Of a stretch of DNA of 49,724 nt, positions 6,246 through 39,715 are shown piece by piece. Source of the stretch: Bacteroidales bacterium (lineage in GTDB: Bacteria; Bacteroidota; Bacteroidia; Bacteroidales; WCHB1-69); NCBI GenBank assembly GCA_017395245.1, contig JAFPVR010000004.1, forward strand, positions 1 through 49,724, in the 5' to 3' direction. Position numbers and translations under genes: made by a program. Under the pieces are notes generated by a model. The model did no database searches. It was not told where the DNA came from and saw only the letters and a program-made list of their open reading frames with translations. How positions within the stretch are numbered: the first letter of the stretch is position 1; each line of letters opens with the position of its first letter.

Positions 6246-6247
6246 AG

Positions 6248-6350
6248 TTTCAGGTTTCAGGTTTCAAGTTTCAAGTCCTAAGTCTCAAGTCCTAAGTCTC
6301 AAGTCTCAAGTCTTAAGTCTTAAGTCTCAAGTCTCAAGTCCTAAGTCTTA
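6248..6350. repeat. Heptamer repeat array (GTYTYAR), array 1
   Basis: About 14 consecutive 7-bp units of the form GTTTCAG, GTTTCAA, GTCCTAA, GTCTCAA and GTCTTAA fill the space between the T9SS cargo and the DUF937 gene, running up to the DUF937 stop. The same degenerate heptamers recur at 6927-6981 and 38611-38682. Confidence 0.85.
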
Positions 6351-11698: not shown

Positions 11699-11730
11699 TT
11701 TAGGAACAATCATGGAATGCTTCTGATTGT

Positions 11731-11765
11731 TGAACTGGTCAAAAATTTTGACCAGTTCAGTTTTT
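11731..11765 (+). repeat. Intergenic GGTCA palindrome, followed by a T-run
   Basis: TGAACTGGTCAA (11731-11742), loop AAATT, TTGACCAGTTCA (11748-11759): perfect 12-bp arms. GTTTTTG follows, so it could end the galK-VanX transcript. The core and the 5-nt AT loop are those of the palindromes inside the neighbouring ORF6N gene (12591 and 12666) and inside the second ORF6N gene (35565-35759). Confidence 0.8.
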
Positions 11766-11828: not shown

Positions 11829-12896
11829 TCAGAATAACAGCACAGGATTGTTCAACAACGTGTCAACAATCTGATGGTAAACTTGCCGGTCGGCCACCTC
11901 AGTGATAGTGGTCACTTTGTTTCCGGCATCTTTTGATGATGCGCCGCAATGAAAAATACGCTCGCCATCGGTATTGTAGTCGAGAATGATGTATCGGTCA
12001 TGAAAAATGCCGCAAGTTTGGCGAAAACTGACTTGAATGTTCGGGTACTCTCTATGAAAATCATCGTAATCGGCTTGATGGAACCCTTTTCCCGTGTTGT
12101 CGCTAAAAACGGTGATGGGAATGTTGTCCACAACGTTTTTAAGCAGTACCAGCGTTTTCAGACCGATATAATTGTCTATAACAAAAACGCTACTTTTAGC
12201 AGATTTGTAGATGTTGCTATATGCGATATTGGCCTCAACCGACTCACCGTTAAGGATCAGGTATTCTCGTCGTGTCATCGGGTCGGTAAAGTCGCGCACC
12301 ACCTTAGCAAGATCGGTTTTGGCGACCATCGTGTTCTTGATTTCAGCAATGTCAGCCGTATTTTGAGCAGTTTGAATGGATAACTGGACCAGCTCTTTGT
12401 TTCCAATCAAGTATCTGTTTTCAACAATGAAATCCTTCATTCCTTTGAAGGTTCGAATCAGCGCTTTACTCTGTTCAACAGCCAATTCGCCTTTCAAGAC
12501 GGTCATAAGCATGTAAATGCCTTGCTCGGTAAATGCATAAGGTAGTGTGCGACTTTTTGAGCTTAACTTTGTGATAGGTATAAATCTATCATTTGCGGTC
12601 AAAATTTTTGACCGCAAATTCAAGTCTGGATTGTAGTCTATTGATAATGAATTGGTTTCATTCTGTTTTGAGGTCAAAATTTTTGACCTCAAAATTTCTT
12701 CATATTCAATTTTGGTCAATTGAAACCGGAAATCATCGTCGAATTTTTCGATGTTGTTCTTCACTTGTTGGTTGAATGCTTTTGTGGTGTAGCCGTAGAT
12801 CGATGCCAAATCAGCATCGAGCATCACCTTGACTCCACGTACGATATAAATCAGTTTGCTGAGGTCTTCAAAGTTGTTTGCATTTTCTGAATTCAT
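11829..12896 (-). CDS. ORF6N-domain protein with C-terminal PLD-like domain (copy 1)
   Basis: A 355-residue protein. The N-terminal about 130 residues are an ORF6N domain, a phage-type DNA-binding module (IYIVRGVKVMLDADLASIYG, FQLTKIEYEEIL, LPYAFTEQGIYMLMTVLKG). The C-terminal part carries H299-x-R301-x4-D306 followed by HCGASSKDAG, resembling one HKD motif of phospholipase D-type nucleases with Lys replaced by Arg. The peptide LRSKILT occurs twice (residues 69-75 and 94-100), each encoded by a perfect inverted repeat. The closest relative in the window is the gene at 35323. It has its own promoter and no operon partners. DNA binding is supported by the family; nuclease activity is only inferred. 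Confidence 0.85.
   Translation of the reverse strand: MNSENANNFEDLSKLIYIVRGVKVMLDADLASIYGYTTKAFNQQVKNNIEKFDDDFRFQLTKIEYEEILRSKILTSKQNETNSLSIDYNPDLNLRSKILTANDRFIPITKLSSKSRTLPYAFTEQGIYMLMTVLKGELAVEQSKALIRTFKGMKDFIVENRYLIGNKELVQLSIQTAQNTADIAEIKNTMVAKTDLAKVVRDFTDPMTRREYLILNGESVEANIAYSNIYKSAKSSVFVIDNYIGLKTLVLLKNVVDNIPITVFSDNTGKGFHQADYDDFHREYPNIQVSFRQTCGIFHDRYIILDYNTDGERIFHCGASSKDAGNKVTTITEVADRQVYHQIVDTLLNNPVLLF
12591..12619. repeat. Intragenic palindrome in ORF6N copy 1 (a)
   Basis: ATTTGCGGTCAA, loop AATTT, TTGACCGCAAAT: perfect 12-bp arms inside the coding sequence, encoding one of the two LRSKILT peptides. Confidence 0.9.
12666..12694. repeat. Intragenic palindrome in ORF6N copy 1 (b)
   Basis: TTTTGAGGTCAA, loop AATTT, TTGACCTCAAAA: perfect 12-bp arms. 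Compared with the copy at 12591, the outer arms differ in sequence but still pair. Confidence 0.9.
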
Positions 12897-29959: not shown

Positions 29960-30035
29960 GACAAGAGTTCACGGATTTCTTTTTGTGATGCTTGAAAGGC
30001 GGAGACGCCCGGACAAATTGAAAAAAACAAGCATC

Positions 30036-33000
30036 ATGAGCAATTTCCACACCGTAATCGACCGTTATCGCAACCTTTCTTTCTCGGAAGCCGACAAAGG
30101 CAACCGCTTTGAACGCCTTATGCAGGCCATGCTCCGCACGATACCGCCCTACAGTGACGAACTGTTGCAGGTCTGGTTGTGGGGCGAGTTTCCCTTCCGC
30201 CAAAGCATCTCGCTGCACGATACTGGCATAGATCTTGTGGCACATACCGCCTCCGGCGACTATTGGGCAATCCAGTGCAAGTGCTATCGCGCCAACGCCC
30301 GAATCGACAAGGAAAGTGTGGACACCTTCCTTTCCACCTCGGCGAGAGCCTTTACCGATGAAAACGGGGCAAAACGGTATTTCAGCCAACGGATGTGGAT
30401 TGACACCACCGATGGCGGATTCACTGCACATGCCGCCGAGAGCTTTACCAACCAGGCCATCCCCGCCATGGTGCTGCATTTGACAGAGCTGGCCGAAATG
30501 CCGATAGATTGGGAGGAGTTAGACAAGGGCATCTCCGGCGAGAAAGCCATCACTGAACACAAGGAGCTGAAACCCCACCAGCAGGAGGCCCTCGACGATG
30601 CATTGAAGCACTACGCTGACCACGACCGCGGCAAGCTCATCATGGCATGCGGCACCGGCAAGACCTTTACCGCCCTTCGCATCGCTGAAGCTATAGGAGC
30701 GCACGCTTCCAGCGTGCAAATAGGAGAACACACCTCCAACATGCGTGACACCAAAATCCTCTTTCTCGTCCCCAGCATCGCCCTGCTTGGCCAAGTACTG
30801 AGGGCGTGGTGCTTCGACGCGAAGAAGCCCATCCGTCCGATGTGCGTATGCTCCGACCGCGAAGTGTCGCGCACACACACAAAAGACGACGACCAAAACC
30901 TTACCATGATTGAAGAACTGGCCTGGCCCGCCTCTACCGATGTGGAACAGATTGTACACCAGTATCATGCGTTGCAGCAAGATTCACGTGATGGTATGTT
31001 GGTCGTGTTCTCCACCTACCAAAGCATCGAGCGGGTGGCGACAGCGCAGCGCGAACTGAATGATGAGCTCATCTTCGACCTCATCATCTGCGATGAGGCG
31101 CACCGCACGACTGGTGTCACACTCAAGGGCGAAGACGAGAGCGCGTTCGTGCGGGTCCACGACAACGACTTCATCCGCGCCCGCAAACGTATGTACATGA
31201 CCGCCACACCGCGTCTTTATAAGGAGGCCGACCAAAAACGCGCCCGCGAGAACGAGGCCTACCTTTGCAGTATGGACGACACCGCCCTCTATGGTGAGGA
31301 ATTCCACCGGCTTGGTTTTGGCGAGGCGGTGGGCAAAAAACTCCTAAGCGATTACAAAGTGCTGATTCTCAATGTCGAACCGGAAGATGTCAGTTCTAAA
31401 ATGCAACAAGTGTTGGCGGGTTTCGATGAAGTGACCCAAAAGGAGGTGGATACCGATGACATGGCCAAGCTCATCGGATGCATTAATGCGTTGAGCAAGC
31501 GGAGCCGTCATGATAATAAACTGCTTCGCGAGGTGGATCCCCAGCCTATGCACCGCGCCGTAGCCTTCTGCCAGAATATCAAGGTGAGCAAGGCCGTGGC
31601 CTCCGCTTTCAACATCTGTGGGGAAGCCTACTACGAGACGCTCACCGAGCAGGAACGCGAGGGACTGGTGCATGTCACGGCTGAACATGTGGACGGGAGT
31701 ATGGGCGCGGCCGTGCGCGAGCGCAAACTCGACTGGTTGAAACGCACCCGTACCGATGGCCTCGACTGCCATCTGCTCAGCAATGTGCGCTGCCTGAGCG
31801 AAGGGGTCGATGTGCCGTCGTTGGATGCTGTCATCTTCCTCTCCGCCAAGAACTCGCAAGTGGATGTGGTGCAGAGTGTGGGTCGCGTGATGCGCGTTGC
31901 CGAAGGCAAGAAATACGGCTATATCATCATTCCCATTGTGGTACCGAGCGACGTGAATCCGGAGGAAGCTTTGGACAACAACAAAACCTACGCCGTGGTA
32001 TGGGACATCCTCAACGCCCTCCGTGCCCACGATGACCGCTTCAATGCGATGGTCAACAAGTTGGAACTCAATAAGCAACGTCCTGATACCGTGCAGATTA
32101 TCCGTCCAGGTAGTCGCATGATTGGGCGGGGTGCCGCCTATCCGGTCCCGGAAGAGGATGGGGCCTTACCCAAGGTGGAGGAGGAACGGGCTGGGTATCA
32201 GACCGCTTTGGATCTGCGTTTTGAAACGCTGCAGAATGTTATCTTCGCCCGTATGGTGCAGAAGGTGGGCAGCAAACGGTATTGGGAGCAGTGGGCTGGC
32301 GACGTGGCGAAGATTGCGGAGAAGCATATTGAGCAGATTAACAAGCTGATAGCCGAAGATACTAAAGCGCGTAAGGCTTTCGACGGGTTCATGAGAGGCT
32401 TGCACAAAGACATCAACCCGGCGGTGACGGAAGCGGCTGCAGTGGAGATGCTGGCTCAGCATATCATCACGCAGCCCGTGTTCGAAGCTCTGTTCGAAAA
32501 CTACGCTTTTGCCGAGTACAACCCCGTAAGCAAGGCTATGAACCGCATCGTGAAGCTGCTCAACGACCAAATGGACGAGTCCGACCATAAGAGTCTGGAA
32601 AAGTTCTATGACCACGTGCGGGAGAGCGTGAAAGGCATCGACAACGCCGAATCGAAGCAGAAAATAGTGGTGGAACTGTATGACAAGTTCTTCTCCACGG
32701 CTTTCCCGAAAGTGAAAGAGCAGTTGGGCATCGTCTATACTCCCGTGGAGGTAGTCGATTTCATCATTCACAGCGTGGAGCACGTGCTGAACGAGCATTT
32801 CGGACGCTCCCTCAACGACCGCAACGTCAGGATTATAGATCCGTTCACCGGCACGGGCACCTTCATCACGCGACTCTTGCAGAGTGGTATCATCAAAGAC
32901 TTGGAATACAAGTACAAACACGAGATTTTTGCCAACGAGATTGTGCTGTTAGCCTATTACATCGCCAGCGTAAATATTGAAAACGTCTATCACGACCTGG

Positions 33001-35069
33001 TAGAAACGCAAAATTTTGCGTCTCTATCGCCGCAGTCGGAAGATAGTACGGTTAGAAACCGTACCTCCTATGTCCCCTTCGACGGCATCTGTCTCACCGA
33101 CACCTTCGAGTTGGGCGAGAAGATGTACCGCAAGCGGGGCATCTTGCGCAAGACCATCAACGACCAAGGCCAGTTTGAGGGTATGGAGACCCCATTTGCG
33201 GAGAACAGCACCCGCGTGCAACGCCAGTTGGACAGCCCGATTACGGTGATCATGGGCAACCCGCCGTACTCTATCGGGCAAAAGAGCGCAAATGACAATG
33301 CGCAAAACCAAAAGTACGAATTGATGGAGAAACGTATCTATGAAACTTACGGGAACAGTTCAGCAACATCAATAAAGGCATTGCATGACAGTTATATTAA
33401 AGCTTTCAGGTGGGCTTCTGACCGACTATATGCGGAGTATGGCGGCATTATAGGCTTTATCACAAATTCTGGGTGGTTAGATAGTAATGGAATGGATGGT
33501 TTCAGAAAAAGCCTGACATCTGAATTTACAGACATATATGTTTTCAATCTTCGTGGAGCAATCAGAGGTCGTGCAGGTGAAACTGCTAAAAAAGAAGGCC
33601 AGAATGTTTTTGATATAATGACTGGTGTGGCCATCATACTTTTAGTCAGAAATCTAAAACATGAGCAACAGAATCAACAAGCTATTATTCATTACTCTGA
33701 TATTGGCGACTATTTGTCGAGAAAAGACAAATTCGACATCATGAAGAAAGCTCACAGCATTAGAGGAGTTATGTTTGAAGAAATATTACCGAATGAACAT
33801 GGAGATTGGATTAACCAGCGAAATGACAGCTTCTCCACATTCATCCCTGTGGAACCTGATAAAAAATTCAATGAGCTTGCCAAGAGTTTCTTCTCCATCA
33901 ACTCTTTGGGCTGTAATACAAACAGAGACGTTTGGATGTACAACAGTTCAAAAGTAGCTTTGGAAAAAAATATGCAGCGTACCATTGATTTCTATAACAG
34001 CCAAGTTGAGGAGTTGAAAAAAATACGTTCTACGGGTGAAAGAATCAAAGTGGACGATTTCAAAAGCTCAGATGAAACGAAAATAAGCTGGAGCAGTAGC
34101 TTGGTCCCAAAGCTGGATGCTGGTGTTTACTGCGATTTTGATGAAAATGGTGTTCGGATAGCAGCATACAGACCGTTTTGTCAACAATATTTTTACTTCG
34201 GCAATCTTTTTGTCCATAGAAGAGGTCAGTTTGATCAACTATTTCCAACTACTGAAGCGCAAAATCTGGTAATAGATATTCCTGGAGTCGGGGTTCCTAA
34301 ACCATTTTCTTGTTTGATAACTGATAAGATTACCGATCTTAATCTGCACACAGCCAGCCAATGTTTCCCCCTCTACTGGTACGAAGAGCGGAAGTCCGTG
34401 CAGGGCGATCTGTTCGAAAGCGGCGGTGAGGACCATTGGATCCGGCATGAGGCTGTCACCGACTTCATCCTTAAGAGAGCGCGGGAGCAGTACGGCGGCA
34501 AGGTGCAGAAGGAGGACATTTTCTACTATGTTTATGGTTTCCTGCACAATCCGGCCTACCGCAAGACCTTCGCCAACGACCTCAAGAAGATGCTGCCAAG
34601 GCTGCCGTTGGTGGAGAAGGCCGAGGATTTCTGGGCATTCTGCCGTGCCGGCCGCGAATTGGCGAACCTGCATCTCCATTACGAGGATGTGGAACCGTGT
34701 CCGGAGGTGGTCATCGATATGTCCTCGTCGGTTCCGCAAAACGTGTACCGCGTGGAACAGATGCGATTCGGGAAAGGCGCAGGCAAGGAAAAAGACCGCA
34801 GCGTCATCGTCTATAACCCGTACATCACCCTGCGAAATATCCCGCTACGCGCATACGACTACGTGGTGAACGGCAAGAGCGCTATCGAGTGGGTGATGGA
34901 ACGCTACTGCGACAAGACGGACAAGAAGAGCGGCATCCGCAACGATGCCAACCAGTGGGGCATCGAGCACGGCAACCCGCGCTATCCGCTCGACCTGCTG
35001 CAAAGCGTCATCACCCTCAGCCTCCGAACCTTAGGAATCGTGGACAGCCTGCCGGAGGTGACGTTTTGA
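30036..35069 (+). CDS. Type ISP single-chain restriction-modification enzyme (nuclease-helicase-methyltransferase)
   Basis: A 1677-residue protein combining, in order: an Mrr-like PD-(D/E)xK nuclease (GIDLVAHTASGDYWAIQCKCY, residues about 63-83), an SF2 helicase/translocase (Walker A CGTGKT near 206, DEAH near 353, MTATPR near 388, VGRVMR near 615), an N6-adenine methyltransferase (DPFTGTGTF at 935; NPPY at 1075), and a C-terminal target recognition region. This is the layout of LlaGI/LlaBIII enzymes, which methylate one strand and cut invading DNA after translocation. The start at 30036 (MSNFHTVIDRYRNLSF) fits better than the ATG at 29985. Bases about 33290-34370 are clearly AT-richer than the rest, and palindromes interrupt the frame near 30695-30740 and 33001-33063. 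No methylase-only or antirestriction genes flank it. All motifs look intact. Confidence 0.93.
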   Translation: MSNFHTVIDRYRNLSFSEADKGNRFERLMQAMLRTIPPYSDELLQVWLWGEFPFRQSISLHDTGIDLVAHTASGDYWAIQCKCYRANARIDKESVDTFLSTSARAFTDENGAKRYFSQRMWIDTTDGGFTAHAAESFTNQAIPAMVLHLTELAEMPIDWEELDKGISGEKAITEHKELKPHQQEALDDALKHYADHDRGKLIMACGTGKTFTALRIAEAIGAHASSVQIGEHTSNMRDTKILFLVPSIALLGQVLRAWCFDAKKPIRPMCVCSDREVSRTHTKDDDQNLTMIEELAWPASTDVEQIVHQYHALQQDSRDGMLVVFSTYQSIERVATAQRELNDELIFDLIICDEAHRTTGVTLKGEDESAFVRVHDNDFIRARKRMYMTATPRLYKEADQKRARENEAYLCSMDDTALYGEEFHRLGFGEAVGKKLLSDYKVLILNVEPEDVSSKMQQVLAGFDEVTQKEVDTDDMAKLIGCINALSKRSRHDNKLLREVDPQPMHRAVAFCQNIKVSKAVASAFNICGEAYYETLTEQEREGLVHVTAEHVDGSMGAAVRERKLDWLKRTRTDGLDCHLLSNVRCLSEGVDVPSLDAVIFLSAKNSQVDVVQSVGRVMRVAEGKKYGYIIIPIVVPSDVNPEEALDNNKTYAVVWDILNALRAHDDRFNAMVNKLELNKQRPDTVQIIRPGSRMIGRGAAYPVPEEDGALPKVEEERAGYQTALDLRFETLQNVIFARMVQKVGSKRYWEQWAGDVAKIAEKHIEQINKLIAEDTKARKAFDGFMRGLHKDINPAVTEAAAVEMLAQHIITQPVFEALFENYAFAEYNPVSKAMNRIVKLLNDQMDESDHKSLEKFYDHVRESVKGIDNAESKQKIVVELYDKFFSTAFPKVKEQLGIVYTPVEVVDFIIHSVEHVLNEHFGRSLNDRNVRIIDPFTGTGTFITRLLQSGIIKDLEYKYKHEIFANEIVLLAYYIASVNIENVYHDLVETQNFASLSPQSEDSTVRNRTSYVPFDGICLTDTFELGEKMYRKRGILRKTINDQGQFEGMETPFAENSTRVQRQLDSPITVIMGNPPYSIGQKSANDNAQNQKYELMEKRIYETYGNSSATSIKALHDSYIKAFRWASDRLYAEYGGIIGFITNSGWLDSNGMDGFRKSLTSEFTDIYVFNLRGAIRGRAGETAKKEGQNVFDIMTGVAIILLVRNLKHEQQNQQAIIHYSDIGDYLSRKDKFDIMKKAHSIRGVMFEEILPNEHGDWINQRNDSFSTFIPVEPDKKFNELAKSFFSINSLGCNTNRDVWMYNSSKVALEKNMQRTIDFYNSQVEELKKIRSTGERIKVDDFKSSDETKISWSSSLVPKLDAGVYCDFDENGVRIAAYRPFCQQYFYFGNLFVHRRGQFDQLFPTTEAQNLVIDIPGVGVPKPFSCLITDKITDLNLHTASQCFPLYWYEERKSVQGDLFESGGEDHWIRHEAVTDFILKRAREQYGGKVQKEDIFYYVYGFLHNPAYRKTFANDLKKMLPRLPLVEKAEDFWAFCRAGRELANLHLHYEDVEPCPEVVIDMSSSVPQNVYRVEQMRFGKGAGKEKDRSVIVYNPYITLRNIPLRAYDYVVNGKSAIEWVMERYCDKTDKKSGIRNDANQWGIEHGNPRYPLDLLQSVITLSLRTLGIVDSLPEVTF
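30701..30737. repeat. Palindromes inside the helicase domain coding sequence
   Basis: GCACGCT-TCC-AGCGTGC (30701-30717) and GGAG-AACACAC-CTCC (30723-30737) encode part of a stretch, GAHASSVQIGEHTSNMRDT, between helicase motif I and the LVPSIALL strand, where related enzymes seem to have a shorter spacer. The first is similar to the intergenic hairpin at 13138-13161. Confidence 0.6.
33001..33063. repeat. In-frame palindromic insert between methyltransferase motifs
   Basis: TAGAAACGCAAAA/TTTTGCGTCTCTA (33001-33026, one mismatch) belongs to the GTAGAGACG family; it is followed by TACGGTT-AGA-AACCGTA (33047-33063). Together they encode roughly VETQNFASLSPQSEDSTVRN between the motif I and NPPY regions. 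The frame stays open. Confidence 0.7.
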
Positions 35070-35185: not shown

Positions 35186-35217
35186 AAATTAACTATTCAA
35201 CCTTGAATAGTTAATTT
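35186..35217. repeat. AT-rich 15-bp-arm palindrome between the restriction gene and ORF6N copy 2
   Basis: AAATTAACTATTCAA (35186-35200) pairs perfectly with TTGAATAGTTAATTT (35203-35217) across two bases. It may end the restriction gene transcript or be an operator for the ORF6N gene, whose -7 box is 74 bases further. Confidence 0.8.
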
Positions 35218-35290
35218 CAAAAACACAATCCGTTGGTTTCCAAGACTTAATAAAAATCACAAAACCCTTGACAAACGGGCGGATTTGTTG

Positions 35291-35298
35291 TATATTTG
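35291..35298 (+). promoter_or_regulatory. -7 promoter element for ORF6N copy 2
   Basis: TATATTTG, 25 bases upstream of the ATG; TTGACA lies about 22 bases further upstream. Confidence 0.7.
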
Positions 35299-35322: not shown

Positions 35323-36405
35323 ATGAACGAACTTGTGGCAAAGAAACAGGAACTTGAAGTCGCAAATTGTGACTTCAAAAACATGGACAACATCAACATC
35401 GGATCACTGATTCATGTTATAAGAGGGCAGCAGGTGATGCTTGATGCTGATTTGGCGATGTTGTATGGCGTAGAAACTAAGAGGTTGAACGAACAGGTTA
35501 AACGCAACATTAATCGTTTCCCTGACGATTTCATGTTTCAACTAACGAAAGAAGACGTGGTTGCTTTAAGGTCACAATTTGTGACCTTAAACGAGGAAGG
35601 CTATTCTTTAAGGTCGCAATTTGTGACCTTAAACGAGAAAAGTAATGCTTTGAGGTCACAAATTGTGACCTCAAACGAAAGACCGGATTCTTCAAGGTCA
35701 CAAATTGTGACCTTGAACGATAAAGGTGATGTTTTGAGGTCGCAAAATGCGACCTCAAACGGAAGGGGCGGTAACAGGTACCTTCCCTACGCCTTCACCC
35801 GCAACGGTATCGCCATGCTCAGCAGTGTTCTGAAGTCCGAAACCGCGGTGGGCGTTAACATCCGCATCATGCGGGCGTTCACGATGATACCCCAACTCGT
35901 CAACTACAACGCACAACTGGCTCAGCGCATTTTCGACATCGAACATCACCAACAGGAAACAGATAGAAAGATTGATGTCATCTTTGAGAAAATCAAGGAC
36001 ATTTCTCCAAAACCGCTCCCCGAACAAGTGTTCCCCACCGGCTGCGTGTGGGACGCATGGACCTACATCTCAGACCTCGTGCGGAGTGCCCGCCAACGAA
36101 TCATCCTAATCGACAACTTCGTTGATGACCGCGTTTTGAGCATGTTCACGAAGCGCGCCGATGGAGTTTCCGCCACTATTCATACCCGTTACAACGAACA
36201 GTTCCTTACCGACCTGAAGAAGCACAACACCCAGTATCCCGAAATCGAATTCATACAACTGCCCCAACGAAACCACGACCGTTTCCTGATTATTGACGAC
36301 AAGGTCTATCTGTTAGGTGCCAGCGTGAAGGATATGGGTTCCGGACTGTGCGCGGTTTCCGAAATGTCAATTTCACCCGATGTTATTTTGGGGTTGCTGA
36401 AATAG
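35323..36405 (+). CDS. ORF6N-domain protein with repeat array and C-terminal PLD-like domain (copy 2)
   Basis: A 360-residue relative of the gene at 11829. The ORF6N domain (HVIRGQQVMLDADLAMLYGV, DDFMFQLTKEDV, YLPYAFTRNGIAMLSSVL) is split by five 14-residue repeats (residues 82-151) of the form LRSQxVTxNxxxxx. Normal ORF6N proteins have one such LRSQIVTS stretch before the YLPYAFTEQG strand. At DNA level the repeats are exact 42-bp units, each containing an inverted repeat. The C-terminus carries H318-x-R320-x4-D325 and LGASVKDMG, similar to an HKD nuclease motif with Arg in place of Lys. Residues 200-225 are probably coiled coil. The adjoining restriction gene suggests a defence or mobile context. 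The function is unknown. Confidence 0.87.
   Translation: MNELVAKKQELEVANCDFKNMDNINIGSLIHVIRGQQVMLDADLAMLYGVETKRLNEQVKRNINRFPDDFMFQLTKEDVVALRSQFVTLNEEGYSLRSQFVTLNEKSNALRSQIVTSNERPDSSRSQIVTLNDKGDVLRSQNATSNGRGGNRYLPYAFTRNGIAMLSSVLKSETAVGVNIRIMRAFTMIPQLVNYNAQLAQRIFDIEHHQQETDRKIDVIFEKIKDISPKPLPEQVFPTGCVWDAWTYISDLVRSARQRIILIDNFVDDRVLSMFTKRADGVSATIHTRYNEQFLTDLKKHNTQYPEIEFIQLPQRNHDRFLIIDDKVYLLGASVKDMGSGLCAVSEMSISPDVILGLLK
35354..35378. repeat. Intragenic palindrome near the 5' end of ORF6N copy 2
   Basis: TTGAAGTCGC, loop AAATT, GTGACTTCAA: 10-bp arms with one G opposite T. Same design as the 42-bp array further downstream. Confidence 0.85.
35565..35774. repeat. Five 42-bp tandem units with covarying inverted repeats
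   Basis: The palindromes start at 35565, 35607, 35649, 35691 and 35733, exactly 42 bp apart. Arms of 11 bp enclose 5-nt loops AATTT, AATTT, AAATT, AAATT and AAAAT. Arms read TTTAAGGTCAC, TTTAAGGTCGC, TTTGAGGTCAC, TTCAAGGTCAC and TTTGAGGTCGC; the right arms change to match in four of the five, and the remaining one is a G opposite T. The units encode 14 residues each in frame. Confidence 0.95.
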
Positions 36406-36554: not shown

Positions 36555-36830
36555 CTACTTGTCTCCATAATGTCCGTATGCAGTAAGTACGAGAACAACG
36601 ACTTCCGTATCGTGAATTTCGTAAACAAGCCGATGTTTCTTGGTGATACGTCTGCTCCATTCACCCGCTCGATTGCCAGAAAGGGGCTCGGGCTTTCCGG
36701 TGCCAGTGCGAGGATGCTCTTTCAGCTCTGCTTCCAGTTTCAAAAGTTTTTGAAAAGCCTTCGGTTCTTCGTTTTTCAGTTTTCTGGCGTCCTCAACGGC
36801 CTGTTTCTTATATCGGATTGTGTAAGCCAT
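36555..36830 (-). CDS. YoeB/Txe-type RelE-superfamily toxin
   Basis: A 91-residue ribosome-dependent mRNA endonuclease of the YoeB/Txe group. The family order is visible: a helical N-terminus (YTIRYKKQAVEDARKLKNEE), the glycine-poor loop GTGKPEPLSGNRAGEWSRRI with the conserved Glu-Trp-Ser-Arg, HRLVYEI, and the C-terminal catalytic AYGHYGDK with His-Tyr. It begins two bases after the antitoxin stop, so the pair is one operon read from the promoter at 37092. No frameshift or missing catalytic residue is seen. Confidence 0.93.
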   Translation of the reverse strand: MAYTIRYKKQAVEDARKLKNEEPKAFQKLLKLEAELKEHPRTGTGKPEPLSGNRAGEWSRRITKKHRLVYEIHDTEVVVLVLTAYGHYGDK

Positions 36831-36832
36831 TA

Positions 36833-37066
36833 TTATACGCGATTTAGGAGATCTTCAATGGTTTCACCCTCTTCCAACTTATACGTAGGGCCTTTCTTCG
36901 CCTCATCGACACGGGCAAAAAATTCCTCTTTTGTGAAAAGAGTGGCATCTTCTTTCTCTGCTACAAGTTTGCGCAAATATTTAGCAGCTCGTTTCAGCAA
37001 GTTCTCGTCTTCAGCGATGATGCTCATGTTGCGGAGCACCTCCGCATTCAATTGCGTAGTTGTCAT
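36833..37066 (-). CDS. Antitoxin of the YoeB-type pair
   Basis: A 77-residue protein from the start MTTTQLNAEVLRNMSIIAED; a much longer open frame extends upstream but crosses the promoter at 37092-37099, so it is rejected. The sequence is acidic and helical (LLKRAAKYLRKLVAEKEDAT) with a short Lys/Glu C-terminus (TYKLEEGETIEDLLNRV), as expected for an antitoxin that wraps round a RelE-type toxin. No clear Phd/YefM or ribbon-helix-helix signature is recognised. The assignment rests on the 2-nt spacing to the toxin and on size. Confidence 0.85.
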   Translation of the reverse strand: MTTTQLNAEVLRNMSIIAEDENLLKRAAKYLRKLVAEKEDATLFTKEEFFARVDEAKKGPTYKLEEGETIEDLLNRV

Positions 37067-37091
37067 ATCTCTGTCATATTTTATCACAGCG

Positions 37092-37099
37092 CAAAAATA
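37092..37099 (-). promoter_or_regulatory. -7 promoter element for the toxin-antitoxin operon
   Basis: TATTTTTG on the minus strand, 26 bases upstream of the chosen antitoxin start. Confidence 0.7.
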
Positions 37100-37232
37100 C
37101 GAAAAATATTTGAACCAAATCATTATGGAAAAACTGAACATGCATACCCCGGACGAGGGACTTGGACTGGCGGGCCAATCGGAACCTCCTGGGCGCAAGG
37201 GCGCGTGCTCGCGTATGTAAGCGTCTGTTTAT

Positions 37233-37365
37233 GCCTGCACCGGCATTTTGTGAATTCCTGCTCCTGCGTTTGTAAATTCCCGCACCTACGTTTGAGAATT
37301 CCCGCACCGGCGTTTGAGAATTCCCGCACCGGCGTTTGAGAATGCCTGCGCAGGCGTTGGCGGAT
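37233..37365. repeat. 22-bp tandem repeat, six units
   Basis: Units begin at 37233, 37256, 37278, 37300, 37322 and 37344. The two central ones are identical (TCCCGCACCGGCGTTTGAGA plus AT); outer ones diverge progressively, and the first has one extra base. The array fills the space between the toxin-antitoxin promoter and the small protein gene at 37399. Confidence 0.9.
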
Positions 37366-38600: not shown

Positions 38601-38610
38601 CATTATCCCA

Positions 38611-38682
38611 AGCCTCAAGTCTTAAGTCTTAAGTCTTAAGTCTTAAGTCTTAAGTCCCAAGTCTCAAGTCTCAAGTCTCAAG
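38611..38682. repeat. Heptamer repeat array 3
   Basis: About ten 7-bp units (AAGTCTT five times, then AAGTCCC and AAGTCTC variants) lie between the HU terminator and the stop of the endonuclease-like gene. Same family as 6248-6350. Confidence 0.9.
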
Positions 38683-38683
38683 T

Positions 38684-39715
38684 CTACTTCCCGCCATCCC
38701 GGAACTCCACATACACCGGCAGATGGTCCGCGAAACCGCCGATGTAGCGCGGGCCGAGGAAGGTGCGGTAGTTCTTACGACCGCCGTACTTTTCGTCCTC
38801 CACCAACAGGAAGTCCGCGTCGAAGATATCCGCACCGCCGACCTGCCGAACGCCGACCGTGTCCGTCAGCCAGGCATCGGACACGACGAACTGGTCCAAG
38901 CAGCCCCAGAAGTCCTCGTGCTTGTGGGAGCCGCGCAGACTCTGCCGCGCCAACGGGAGCATCAGGTTGTAGAGCGTGTCGCGGGGCAGGCGCGGGCCAT
39001 ACTCCCGCACGCGCAGGTGGTCCGCCATGCTCTCGTCGGTGGCGTAATCGTTGAAGTCGCCGGTAATCAGGATCTTGGCCTGGGGGTCGCCACGGATAAG
39101 CGAGTCCACACACATACGTACGACGTCGGCATAATGGTTGCGCTTGGGCACCGTGGCCGCGTACCCGCCATAGCGCGAAGTCCAGTGGTTGACGAACACA
39201 TGCAGCGAATCGCCACTTGGAAACTGCACCACCGCGTAAAGGATGTCCCGGTTTCGCGCGAAGGTGTCGAACGGGAAGACCACCGGAATCTTCCGGCTTC
39301 GCAGAATCCGCACGCAGCTGTCCCGGTAGAGCAGCGCAACATCGACCCCCCGGCGGTCGGGCGAGTCGTAATGCACATACCGATACCGATAGGCCCGTAA
39401 CGGCGATTTGTAACACAAGTCCTTGAGTACCTGCTCGTTTTCAATCTCCGCAAGTCCGACAAGCCACGGCGGGTCACCCATACCCGCCGCCACTATCACC
39501 TTTCCAACCATGGAAATCTTCTTGAAATACTTTTTATAGGTCCAGTGATAGCTGCCCGTCGGAGTAAAATCATCGTCTGCCTTCAGACTGTCGTCCGATG
39601 GGTGAAACAGGTTCTCCACGTTGTAGAAGAGGATTCTGTGAAGCGCGGTGTCCGTCTGCGCCCAGCCGACCGCACCGCATAATAAACCGAATACTATGAT
39701 ACAAATACGTTTCAT
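38684..39715 (-). CDS. Exported endonuclease/exonuclease/phosphatase family protein
   Basis: A 343-residue protein with a signal peptide (MKRICIIVFGLLCGAVGWAQ). The EEP fold motifs are in order: FYNVENLF, the metal-binding Glu in VGLAEIENEQV, SPDRRGVDVALLYR, the catalytic His in FVNHWTSRYGG, ITGDFNDYATDES, and the final ADHLPVYVEF with the terminal Asp-His. Such secreted Bacteroidota enzymes are probably phosphodiesterases or nucleases acting in the periplasm or outside the cell; the substrate is not predictable. The start at 39715 is chosen because the longer ATG at 39739 falls inside the promoter. Confidence 0.88.
   Translation of the reverse strand: MKRICIIVFGLLCGAVGWAQTDTALHRILFYNVENLFHPSDDSLKADDDFTPTGSYHWTYKKYFKKISMVGKVIVAAGMGDPPWLVGLAEIENEQVLKDLCYKSPLRAYRYRYVHYDSPDRRGVDVALLYRDSCVRILRSRKIPVVFPFDTFARNRDILYAVVQFPSGDSLHVFVNHWTSRYGGYAATVPKRNHYADVVRMCVDSLIRGDPQAKILITGDFNDYATDESMADHLRVREYGPRLPRDTLYNLMLPLARQSLRGSHKHEDFWGCLDQFVVSDAWLTDTVGVRQVGGADIFDADFLLVEDEKYGGRKNYRTFLGPRYIGGFADHLPVYVEFRDGGK

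Follow-up and report, generated by a model that had tools for sequence, protein, structure and literature searches.

Why should a gene hold palindromes at a place where both arms must also be read as codons? This question is raised by an ORF6N gene of a Bacteroidales bacterium (GenBank assembly GCA_017395245.1, contig JAFPVR010000004.1), of which we analyzed positions 1 to 49,724, here called the window. The product of the gene matched the ORF6N profile PF10543 with an E value of 2.4e-35 and 121.1 bits, against a curated cut-off of 27.8. A sequence-only reading had described five inverted repeats in the gene at exact 42-bp steps (35565, 35607, 35649, 35691 and 35733), plus one at 35354, and we confirmed this arrangement. 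Beyond the window, we observed that ORF6N genes from many phyla hold a palindrome of about 31 bp at one place, where compensating base changes preserve it. The window gene and its palindromes are as follows.

35323..36405, + strand: ORF6N gene, 360 aa, with the ORF6N domain and a C-terminal domain bearing an HDRFLIID motif
35351..35381: palindrome at the 5' end of the gene, one G.T mismatch, model E value 5e-4
35563..35593: palindrome unit 1, at the family's core position, coding LRSQFVTLN
35605..35635: palindrome unit 2, one G.T mismatch, coding LRSQFVTLN
35647..35677: palindrome unit 3, coding LRSQIVTSN, the best site (model E value 6e-7)
35689..35719: palindrome unit 4, coding SRSQIVTLN
35731..35761: palindrome unit 5, coding LRSQNATSN

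Each of these palindromes spans about 31 bp. The 5-nt AT-rich loop first assigned to them was wrong, as the arms reach to 1-3 nt from the centre: three units have perfect 13-nt arms around 1 base, and unit 5 has perfect 12-nt arms around a 3-base centre. The outer arms covary exactly, as had been claimed (TTTAAGG/CCTTAAA, TTTGAGG/CCTCAAA and TTCAAGG/CCTTGAA, that is, TA/TA, TG/CA and CA/TG). The inner covariation, GTCGC/GCGAC, is complete in unit 5 only; unit 2 and the copy at 35354 read GTCGC/GTGAC, with one G.T mismatch each. All repeats had also been placed inside the gene, which holds for the five units. The palindrome at 35351-35381 may be leader instead of coding sequence, because a second in-frame ATG (35383) comes after it. 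A 19-mer core pattern, with up to three mismatches allowed, gave 14 matches, against a shuffled mean of 0.28 (maximum 3; 0 of 100 shuffles reached 14).

To locate the site in other genes, the register was set by the protein profile alone, blind to the DNA. Of 204 ORF6N matches obtained in this way, 197 were ungapped over the eight codons of the site, and 172 of these 197 formed at least 10 of 12 pairs. The mean was 10.57 pairs at the site and 1.8-4.2 at each of 43 other codon offsets (-14 to +29). Among named genomes, 77 of 85 ungapped matches (87 rows) reached at least 10 of 12 pairs. The best 80 loci listed there, metagenome bins for the most part, include by title Nitrospirae, Deltaproteobacteria, Omnitrophota, Acidobacteria, Beta- and Gammaproteobacteria, Planctomycetes, Verrucomicrobia, Elusimicrobia, Melainabacteria and Treponema. 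Both counts are unfiltered, as is the KilA-N count of 25 of 26 given below; some loci overlap (for example L028/L083), and de-duplication was applied only where distinct sequences are stated. Five pairs or fewer were seen in the aligned register of 12 of the 197 genes, 10 of which have a palindrome in a shifted register or frame (two rows of this set, both L019, correspond to L313 in the frame classification described below).

Is this pairing a by-product of codon choice? When codons were redrawn for the same peptides (202 distinct 25-mers; 284 of 318 rows used, with at least 8 of 11 pairs), 4.52 +/- 0.11 of 11 pairs were formed (maximum 4.87 in 200 draws), against 10.15 observed. Synonymous bases gave the same picture. 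In 189 distinct 25-mers that formed 8 or more of 12 pairs, the third base obeyed the other arm in 153 of 155 leucine TTR codons, in 142 of 144 serine TCN codons at codon 8 and in 111 of 116 at codon 3. The third base of threonine ACN followed codon 2 in 82 of 89 cases for G-C and 16 of 17 for T-A, and in just 17 of 33 for A-T. The synonymous-base counts and the shuffle tests, like the mismatch count below, were confined to sites pairing at 8 or more of 12 positions (185 of 197 for the mismatches) and so describe kept sites. The claim that the palindrome itself is kept beyond codon choice is supported by the redraw and by the synonymous bases tracking the other arm; the redraw and the change of reading frame rejected the by-product explanation.

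The paired region is longer than the 25-mer. Pairing was strong for three more bases on each side (z 12.6, 10.9 and 8.9) and then dropped to z 2.5, giving 15 bp per side. In an alignment of diverse 31-mers picked by scanning (A3, 56 of 57 chosen sites), 88.3% of cells were paired, against 62.0% after shuffling, with a covariation score of 0.647 against 0.173. Both A3 and the covariance model R1 came from a scan that fixed T7, A11, T15 and A19, and the invariance of these bases in A3 and in the set of non-coding sites is by construction.

The sequence-only reading had proposed its own test, namely a search for homologues in which the LRSQxVT peptide is kept and the arms do not pair. We found the opposite: pairing was kept where this peptide was lost. 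The peptides encoded at the site include LRSQIVTS, LIFQFGIS, LMSQIATS, LRYQFGTS, WRSQIVTS, LRCQNGTS, LMCKNFTS and VKSQIVTSR. The pair T7-A19 remained T and A in 237 of 251 sites, despite codon 3 encoding S, F, Y, C or L and codon 7 encoding T, I, M, R or S. Even the reading frame can change. Among 319 intragenic sites, 301 were in the LRSQ frame, 17 in the second frame and 1 in the third. Eight of the 17 second-frame rows (7 loci) lie at the usual aligned place in the protein, with peptides such as ELITNCDKL and KLVTKCDRL. Of the other nine, eight lie 203-257 nt before the usual place, near the gene start, and may be leader sites, and the second-frame site in L220 is probably due to chance. 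Thus, pairing, not peptide, is what is kept at the site: a DNA symmetry overrides the protein sequence inside a gene, across phyla. As the codons in the two arms must pair, residues that lie several positions from each other become coupled, and covariation between residues in such families may have causes other than structure.

Two roles suggested earlier for the window array were not supported as general ones. The first was that the hairpin is a substrate of the nuclease-like C-terminal domain. Short ORF6N proteins carry the same site (48 of 49 complete ones have 143-202 residues), and a role tied to the C-terminal domain was rejected, as ORF6N-only genes have the site. The label ORF6N/PLD-like was itself right in its first half (PF10543), and the second was not established: the C-terminal half has no Pfam match, PLD or other, and carries a single HDRFLIID motif, whose H, D and R are invariant in 8 ORF6N proteins that have such a tail. 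PLD proteins presumably have two HxKx4D motifs. The HDRFLIID..GASVKD motif of the window gene lies at 36274-36333, and the NCBIfam match of the tail, VPA1262_N, is weak and below cut-off. The second suggested role was a device for gaining and losing 14-residue units. One internal copy is present at most loci, although some loci have palindrome units in tandem, at steps of 30, 36 or 42 bp. Coding spacings were 42 bp in 12 of 20 cases (the window itself accounts for 4 of these 12, and the set includes near-duplicate loci), the rest being 30, 36, 72 and 75 bp.

We then compared how the arms and the surrounding sequence diverge. In disjoint nearest pairs of genes, divergence of the arms against that of flanking codons was 0.019 versus 0.056, 0.066 versus 0.155, 0.123 versus 0.233 and 0.168 versus 0.298, the arms being 1.8-3 times slower. 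With rising divergence, the ratio of compensated to single changes went from 1:3 to 5:7, 17:14 and 45:33, the two closest bins holding few changed pairs (4 and 13). This looks like purifying selection, with compensation coming later. It bears on an explanation by mutational homogenisation, in which template switching perfects a functionless palindrome and the amino acid changes are a by-product. A process that evens out the arms of short inverted repeats, coding genes included, is known from the consulted part of PMC8604942, and the consulted parts of PMC8794818 and PMC7202029 also bear on it. As the sole cause we consider it improbable, given that the palindrome sits at the same place over phyla, that the arms diverge more slowly than flanking codons, that single changes come first and compensated ones grow with divergence, and that similar sites occur in flanking non-coding DNA. 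Template switching may be a helper; the constant place, the slow rate and the copies outside the gene remain unexplained by it.

These outside copies also show whether DNA or mRNA is constrained. Of the sites that a scan of 298 ORF6N loci yielded, 264 were core sites and 55 lay at other places in the gene; 38 were upstream, 16 were downstream and 7 were at a distance of more than 600 bp. Within 200 bp of ORF6N genes, 49 distinct non-coding sites are paired and varied in sequence. Among the upstream sites, 25 of 38 fall 28-62 bp before the assumed start; start codons were taken as the nearest ATG at least 60 codons before the site, and the terms upstream and inside are uncertain near gene starts. 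A separate scan of the 200 bp upstream, which scores the shape and not the ORF6N core and left out 123 genes with short upstream DNA, showed that 31 of 199 genes and 2 of 184 control windows hold a palindrome of this shape with at least 10 of 11 pairs. Mismatches at coding sites comprised 17 G.T, 33 A.C and 52 others, and at non-coding sites 25 G.T, 37 A.C and 62 others. The constraint therefore acts on DNA and not on mRNA, because there is no G.U excess among the mismatches. Together with the use of another frame and the non-coding copies, this shows that the palindrome is kept as DNA.

An RNA hairpin had also been entertained by the sequence-only reading, and a hairpin controlling translation or stability of the ORF6N mRNA would fit the fact that 373 of 380 scanned sites lie in or no more than 600 bp from an ORF6N gene, where the transcript could hold them. 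We regard it as very improbable: G.T is rarer than A.C at both kinds of site (raw counts, codon constraint included), which argues against an RNA stem, since paired RNA would favour G.U. The tolerance of G.U that is typical of structured mRNA was not seen, and the wobble counts rejected this candidate.

How widely is the palindrome distributed? The genome of the window has three ORF6N genes. The third, on contig C20, is over the PF10543 cut-off and has one palindrome. The second lies in the window, with these features:

11829..12896, - strand: second ORF6N gene, 355 aa, over the PF10543 cut-off
12665..12695: core palindrome of the second gene, coding LRSKILTSK
12590..12620: second intragenic palindrome of the second gene, coding LRSKILTAN
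11730..11760: non-coding palindrome about 70 bp beyond the second gene's stop codon, inner core GGTCAAAA..TTTTGACC

The internal palindromes of this second gene have the inner core GGTCAAAA..TTTTGACC, unlike those of the gene at 35323-36405. The non-coding copy at 11730-11760 has the same inner core as they do, and different outer arms. A covariance-model search of the 3.78-Mb genome (E value up to 1) returned 10 sites, all inside or no more than 70 bp from the three ORF6N genes; in these whole-genome searches, 150 first-look candidates were scored per genome (150 of 544 in the window's own). In 34 further genomes, at an E value of up to 0.01, matches were found in 12 of 14 ORF6N-bearing genomes, all of them inside an ORF6N domain match or no more than about 270 bp from one. 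The 20 genomes lacking ORF6N gave 4 matches in 3 of them, each a stem followed by a T tract at a gene end, with no ORF6N-like frame; these (compare L317-L320) look like ordinary terminators. Thus, in the genomes tested, the palindrome is confined to ORF6N loci.

This distribution rejected a genome-wide repeat family. Rickettsia palindromic elements are short palindromes inside genes, dispersed through the genome; the ORF6N palindrome differs from these and from the dispersed REP sequences, as it occurs in its own genome only at its gene family, with 10 sites in 3.78 Mb in place of many dispersed copies. REP/RAYT sequences are likewise short palindromes, according to the consulted part of PMC3733652. 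With Rho-independent terminators the site shares a stem-loop in DNA; unlike them, the window sites have no T tract and most sites lie within open reading frames, and this candidate was rejected as well.

ORF6N matches are clustered on one contig in some cases (L028/L083, L109 and contig C48 of G003), with up to 13 family matches per genome. Such numbers and tandem clusters, and the copies before and after the gene, would suit a recombination or homing site, a target of gene conversion or duplication between ORF6N copies that gives rise to clusters and arrays. Empty dispersed sites were not found, all sites in the window's own genome and in the ORF6N-bearing genomes searched being at ORF6N genes. 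Genomes with a single ORF6N match also carry the palindrome, and we hold this explanation to be hardly probable.

Next, we asked whether related families of putative DNA-binding proteins carry such a site. In Bro-N genes from the phylum of the window, a palindrome score of at least 9 was reached at +100 to +180 of the domain in 18 of 30 loci, against 30 of 1069 control windows. After codon redraw, 0.5 of the 29 distinct sequences would be expected to score at least 9, and 17 did so; three frames are in use at roughly one aligned place. For KilA-N we used 21 of 30 loci (9 partial, weak or stop-bearing matches were excluded). When 40-bp windows were compared between -400 and +800, that at +160 stood out, with a mean of 11.33 against 3.5-5.0. 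In the protein-aligned set, which adds 5 named loci, at least 12 of 15 pairs were formed in 25 of 26. The 21 distinct sequences had a mean of 13.24, against 10.12 with arms shuffled and 8.63 after codon redraw, and their peptides range from FNPVEFDGIK to FNYPEFGVIE and FNLVELHQIK. In the window's own genome there is one KilA-N match (14 of 15 pairs) and one Bro-N match (score 8). These results show that the sampled Bro-N and KilA-N genes carry palindromes of other sequence at set places.

Twelve named records were also inspected, and 7 have an internal palindrome: the KilA-N genes of Xenorhabdus, Staphylococcus phage EW, a Mannheimia phage and satellite phage Javan279, the ORF6N genes of Sulfuricurvum and Butyrivibrio, and dinD of Zymomonas. 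In the Butyrivibrio gene, leader and internal sites are near-identical. Latilactobacillus KilA-N and Thiothrix dinD have a leader palindrome instead of an internal one (two anecdotes), and the palindrome of E. coli dinD is weak (score 6). The Mannheimia phage record (L389) annotates a Rho-independent terminator on the opposite strand at 358-387, inside the KilA-N gene; its coordinates rule it out as the KilA-N palindrome, which is centred near 462. In a single P22_AR_N gene (L405) the best palindrome, at +155 of the domain, has a score of 8; the one pRha gene (L395) shows a weak palindrome at +101, with a score of 6. P22_AR_N and pRha are possible further palindrome families, and AntA was found in 0 of 198 genomes.

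What, then, would the palindrome do? We hypothesize that each one is an operator to which the gene's own ORF6N product binds as a dimer, a reading to which we give a probability of roughly 55%. A binding site for the encoded protein was among the roles first suggested, and it is the best reading of the kept palindrome, the binding itself being predicted. In this model, ORF6N would be a winged-helix-like domain followed by a long helix fit for dimerisation, and the dimer would read both symmetric arms. Bound to the intragenic site, and to the leader or post-stop copies where present, it would restrain expression of its own gene through a roadblock or through a DNA loop joining sites that lie some 210-310 bp from each other. 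In the window gene, the segment that codes for the protein loop is multiplied in 42-bp steps (four helical turns), and several dimers would thereby come to lie on one face of the DNA.

A predicted structure of a 176-aa ORF6N-only product (L271; mean predicted local distance difference test score, pLDDT, 82) is consistent with this model. It has a long helix at 104-141, and the residues encoded by the site form the end of helix 64-74 and the following loop, between two strands, residues 71-80 having an average pLDDT of 68. The protein would tolerate the amino acids dictated by the palindrome because the site would fall in DNA coding for a helix end and a less ordered loop. Among the nearest folds are several DNA-binding domains, namely Ski (Z 6.8), Dachshund (5.8), RacA on DNA (5.2) and a MerR regulator on DNA (4.8). 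The excess of palindromes upstream of ORF6N genes and the likeness of outer arms within a locus, given below, also speak for the operator model.

The main rival is a reader of cruciforms or hairpins: ORF6N or a host factor would recognise a DNA secondary structure, either a cruciform or a hairpin formed when the DNA is single-stranded in replication or transfer. For the stem, pairing would suffice, with the CAANTTG centre and T7/A19 being read. Several observations would fit. The outer arms vary and stay paired in coding and non-coding copies alike, the innermost pair tolerates mismatches, as in a 3-nt loop (pair 12-14, z -1.2), and strong DNA hairpins are predicted, each of the six copies in the window gene beating all 200 of its own shuffles in single-stranded DNA folding (z -5.8 to -8.0). 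A hairpin alone, however, needs neither a tie to putative DNA-binding families nor any likeness between the arms of one gene's sites. Such likeness was seen: outer arms of outside sites resembled those of their own internal site (0.689) more than those of other loci (0.606; p 0.002; 35 loci, 49 outside sites), although near-duplicate loci are included and the two window genes count as one locus, which makes these p values optimistic. A fixed arm code per locus is only partly supported. DinD-type and KilA-N sites also tend to retain particular outer sequences (GACCATTTT.., TTTAA..). We therefore judge the secondary-structure explanation unlikely, if more serious than the other alternatives.

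Several points weigh against the operator model. Palindrome binding, DNA contact and repression by the ORF6N protein are predictions. The outer arms vary between sites of one locus (the window; L272), which is odd for a fixed operator, and the likeness within loci is modest and may stem from copying of sites; it weakens at pairs 5-6 (p 0.04) and is absent at the inner core (p 0.13) and at the outermost bases (p 0.27). A strict scan left 23 of 298 ORF6N loci without a match, and no upstream copy was found within 200 bp in 168 of 199 genes. Genes lacking a good internal site are hardly richer in upstream sites (5 of 28 versus 26 of 171), and with no clear association in ORF6N the idea that an upstream site replaces a missing internal one was dropped. 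Spacings with a non-coding member are spread over 28-116 bp, and we do not press the claim of helical phase. In the other families, 12 of 30 Bro-N loci score below 9, and among the 12 named records Haliovirga ORF6N and Calothrix dinD have no clear palindrome. As for the L271 model, all fold scores are below Z 8, a range where chance likeness is common, the second-best match is a viral envelope-protein domain, and Foldseek returned nothing at an E value of up to 0.001. A sequence search of solved structures found none.

The operator model has precedents. Intragenic operators of bacterial repressors are known, such as lacO2 inside lacZ and galOI inside galE. Like these, the ORF6N site is a palindrome in coding sequence. 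Both lacO2 and galOI are protein-bound and have an upstream partner; for ORF6N the binding is predicted, and an upstream palindrome was seen in 31 of 199 genes. As in an intragenic operator, the coding site is kept by selection on the DNA. Unlike lacO2 and galOI, the ORF6N site lies in the very sequence that codes for the presumed DNA-binding domain, stays at one position over many phyla and dictates amino acids. If it serves ordinary autoregulation, it would be a variant of the intragenic operator.

A broader proposal, to which we give slightly less than even odds, is that ORF6N genes and, judging by our samples, the Bro-N and KilA-N genes of bacteria and phages carry their own operator inside the sequence coding for the DNA-binding domain, at a set place that may pre-date the split of the families. 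Pairing at the site, and not the protein, would set the local amino acids, and the gene would be a movable autoregulatory unit, domain-swapping genes taking the operator along wherever the domain moves. If this is true, sequence alone would reveal which DNA is targeted by three large regulator families of phages and bacteria (DinD included), and the regulation of the ORF6N, Bro-N and KilA-N families would become directly testable.

In the open PubMed Central literature (titles and starts of abstracts; subscription papers lay outside this scope), where ORF6N is named in five papers, we found no description of palindromes in these genes, and we know of no counterpart to a site that genes encode within themselves and that stays at a single place throughout a family. 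The nearest phenomenon that we found is that of the coding palindromes of Nematomorpha mitochondrial genes, described in the consulted part of PMC6649704. These are perfect inverted repeats of up to 284 bp in functional protein genes, with protein and structure both kept, as at the ORF6N site; the latter differs in being short, in belonging to DNA-binding families and in occurring in bacteria and phages. Domain swapping in the palindrome-bearing protein families is treated in PMC10111431, whose consulted part does not mention an internal site.

Finally, we looked at the surroundings of the window ORF6N gene. Reading the sequence against what we take to be a Bacteroidota-type consensus, we noted one promoter-like element upstream of it:

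35268..35298, + strand: promoter-like TTG...TATATTTG

On the 5' side of this element lies a perfect 15-nt inverted repeat, AAATTAACTATTCAA/TTGAATAGTTAATTT (35186-35217), and a partial equivalent of this repeat is readable upstream of the ORF6N gene on C20. A large type ISP restriction-modification enzyme is encoded directly 5' of the window gene (29985-35069, + strand). Directly 3' are a Txe/YoeB-family toxin gene (TIGR02116) and its neighbour, at 36555-36830 and 36833-37198 (both - strand); the unassigned neighbour may be the antitoxin. The window also holds short tandem arrays at 6246-6348, 37237-37358 and 38610-38685, made of 7-bp AGTCTCA and AAGTCTT units and a 22-bp unit.

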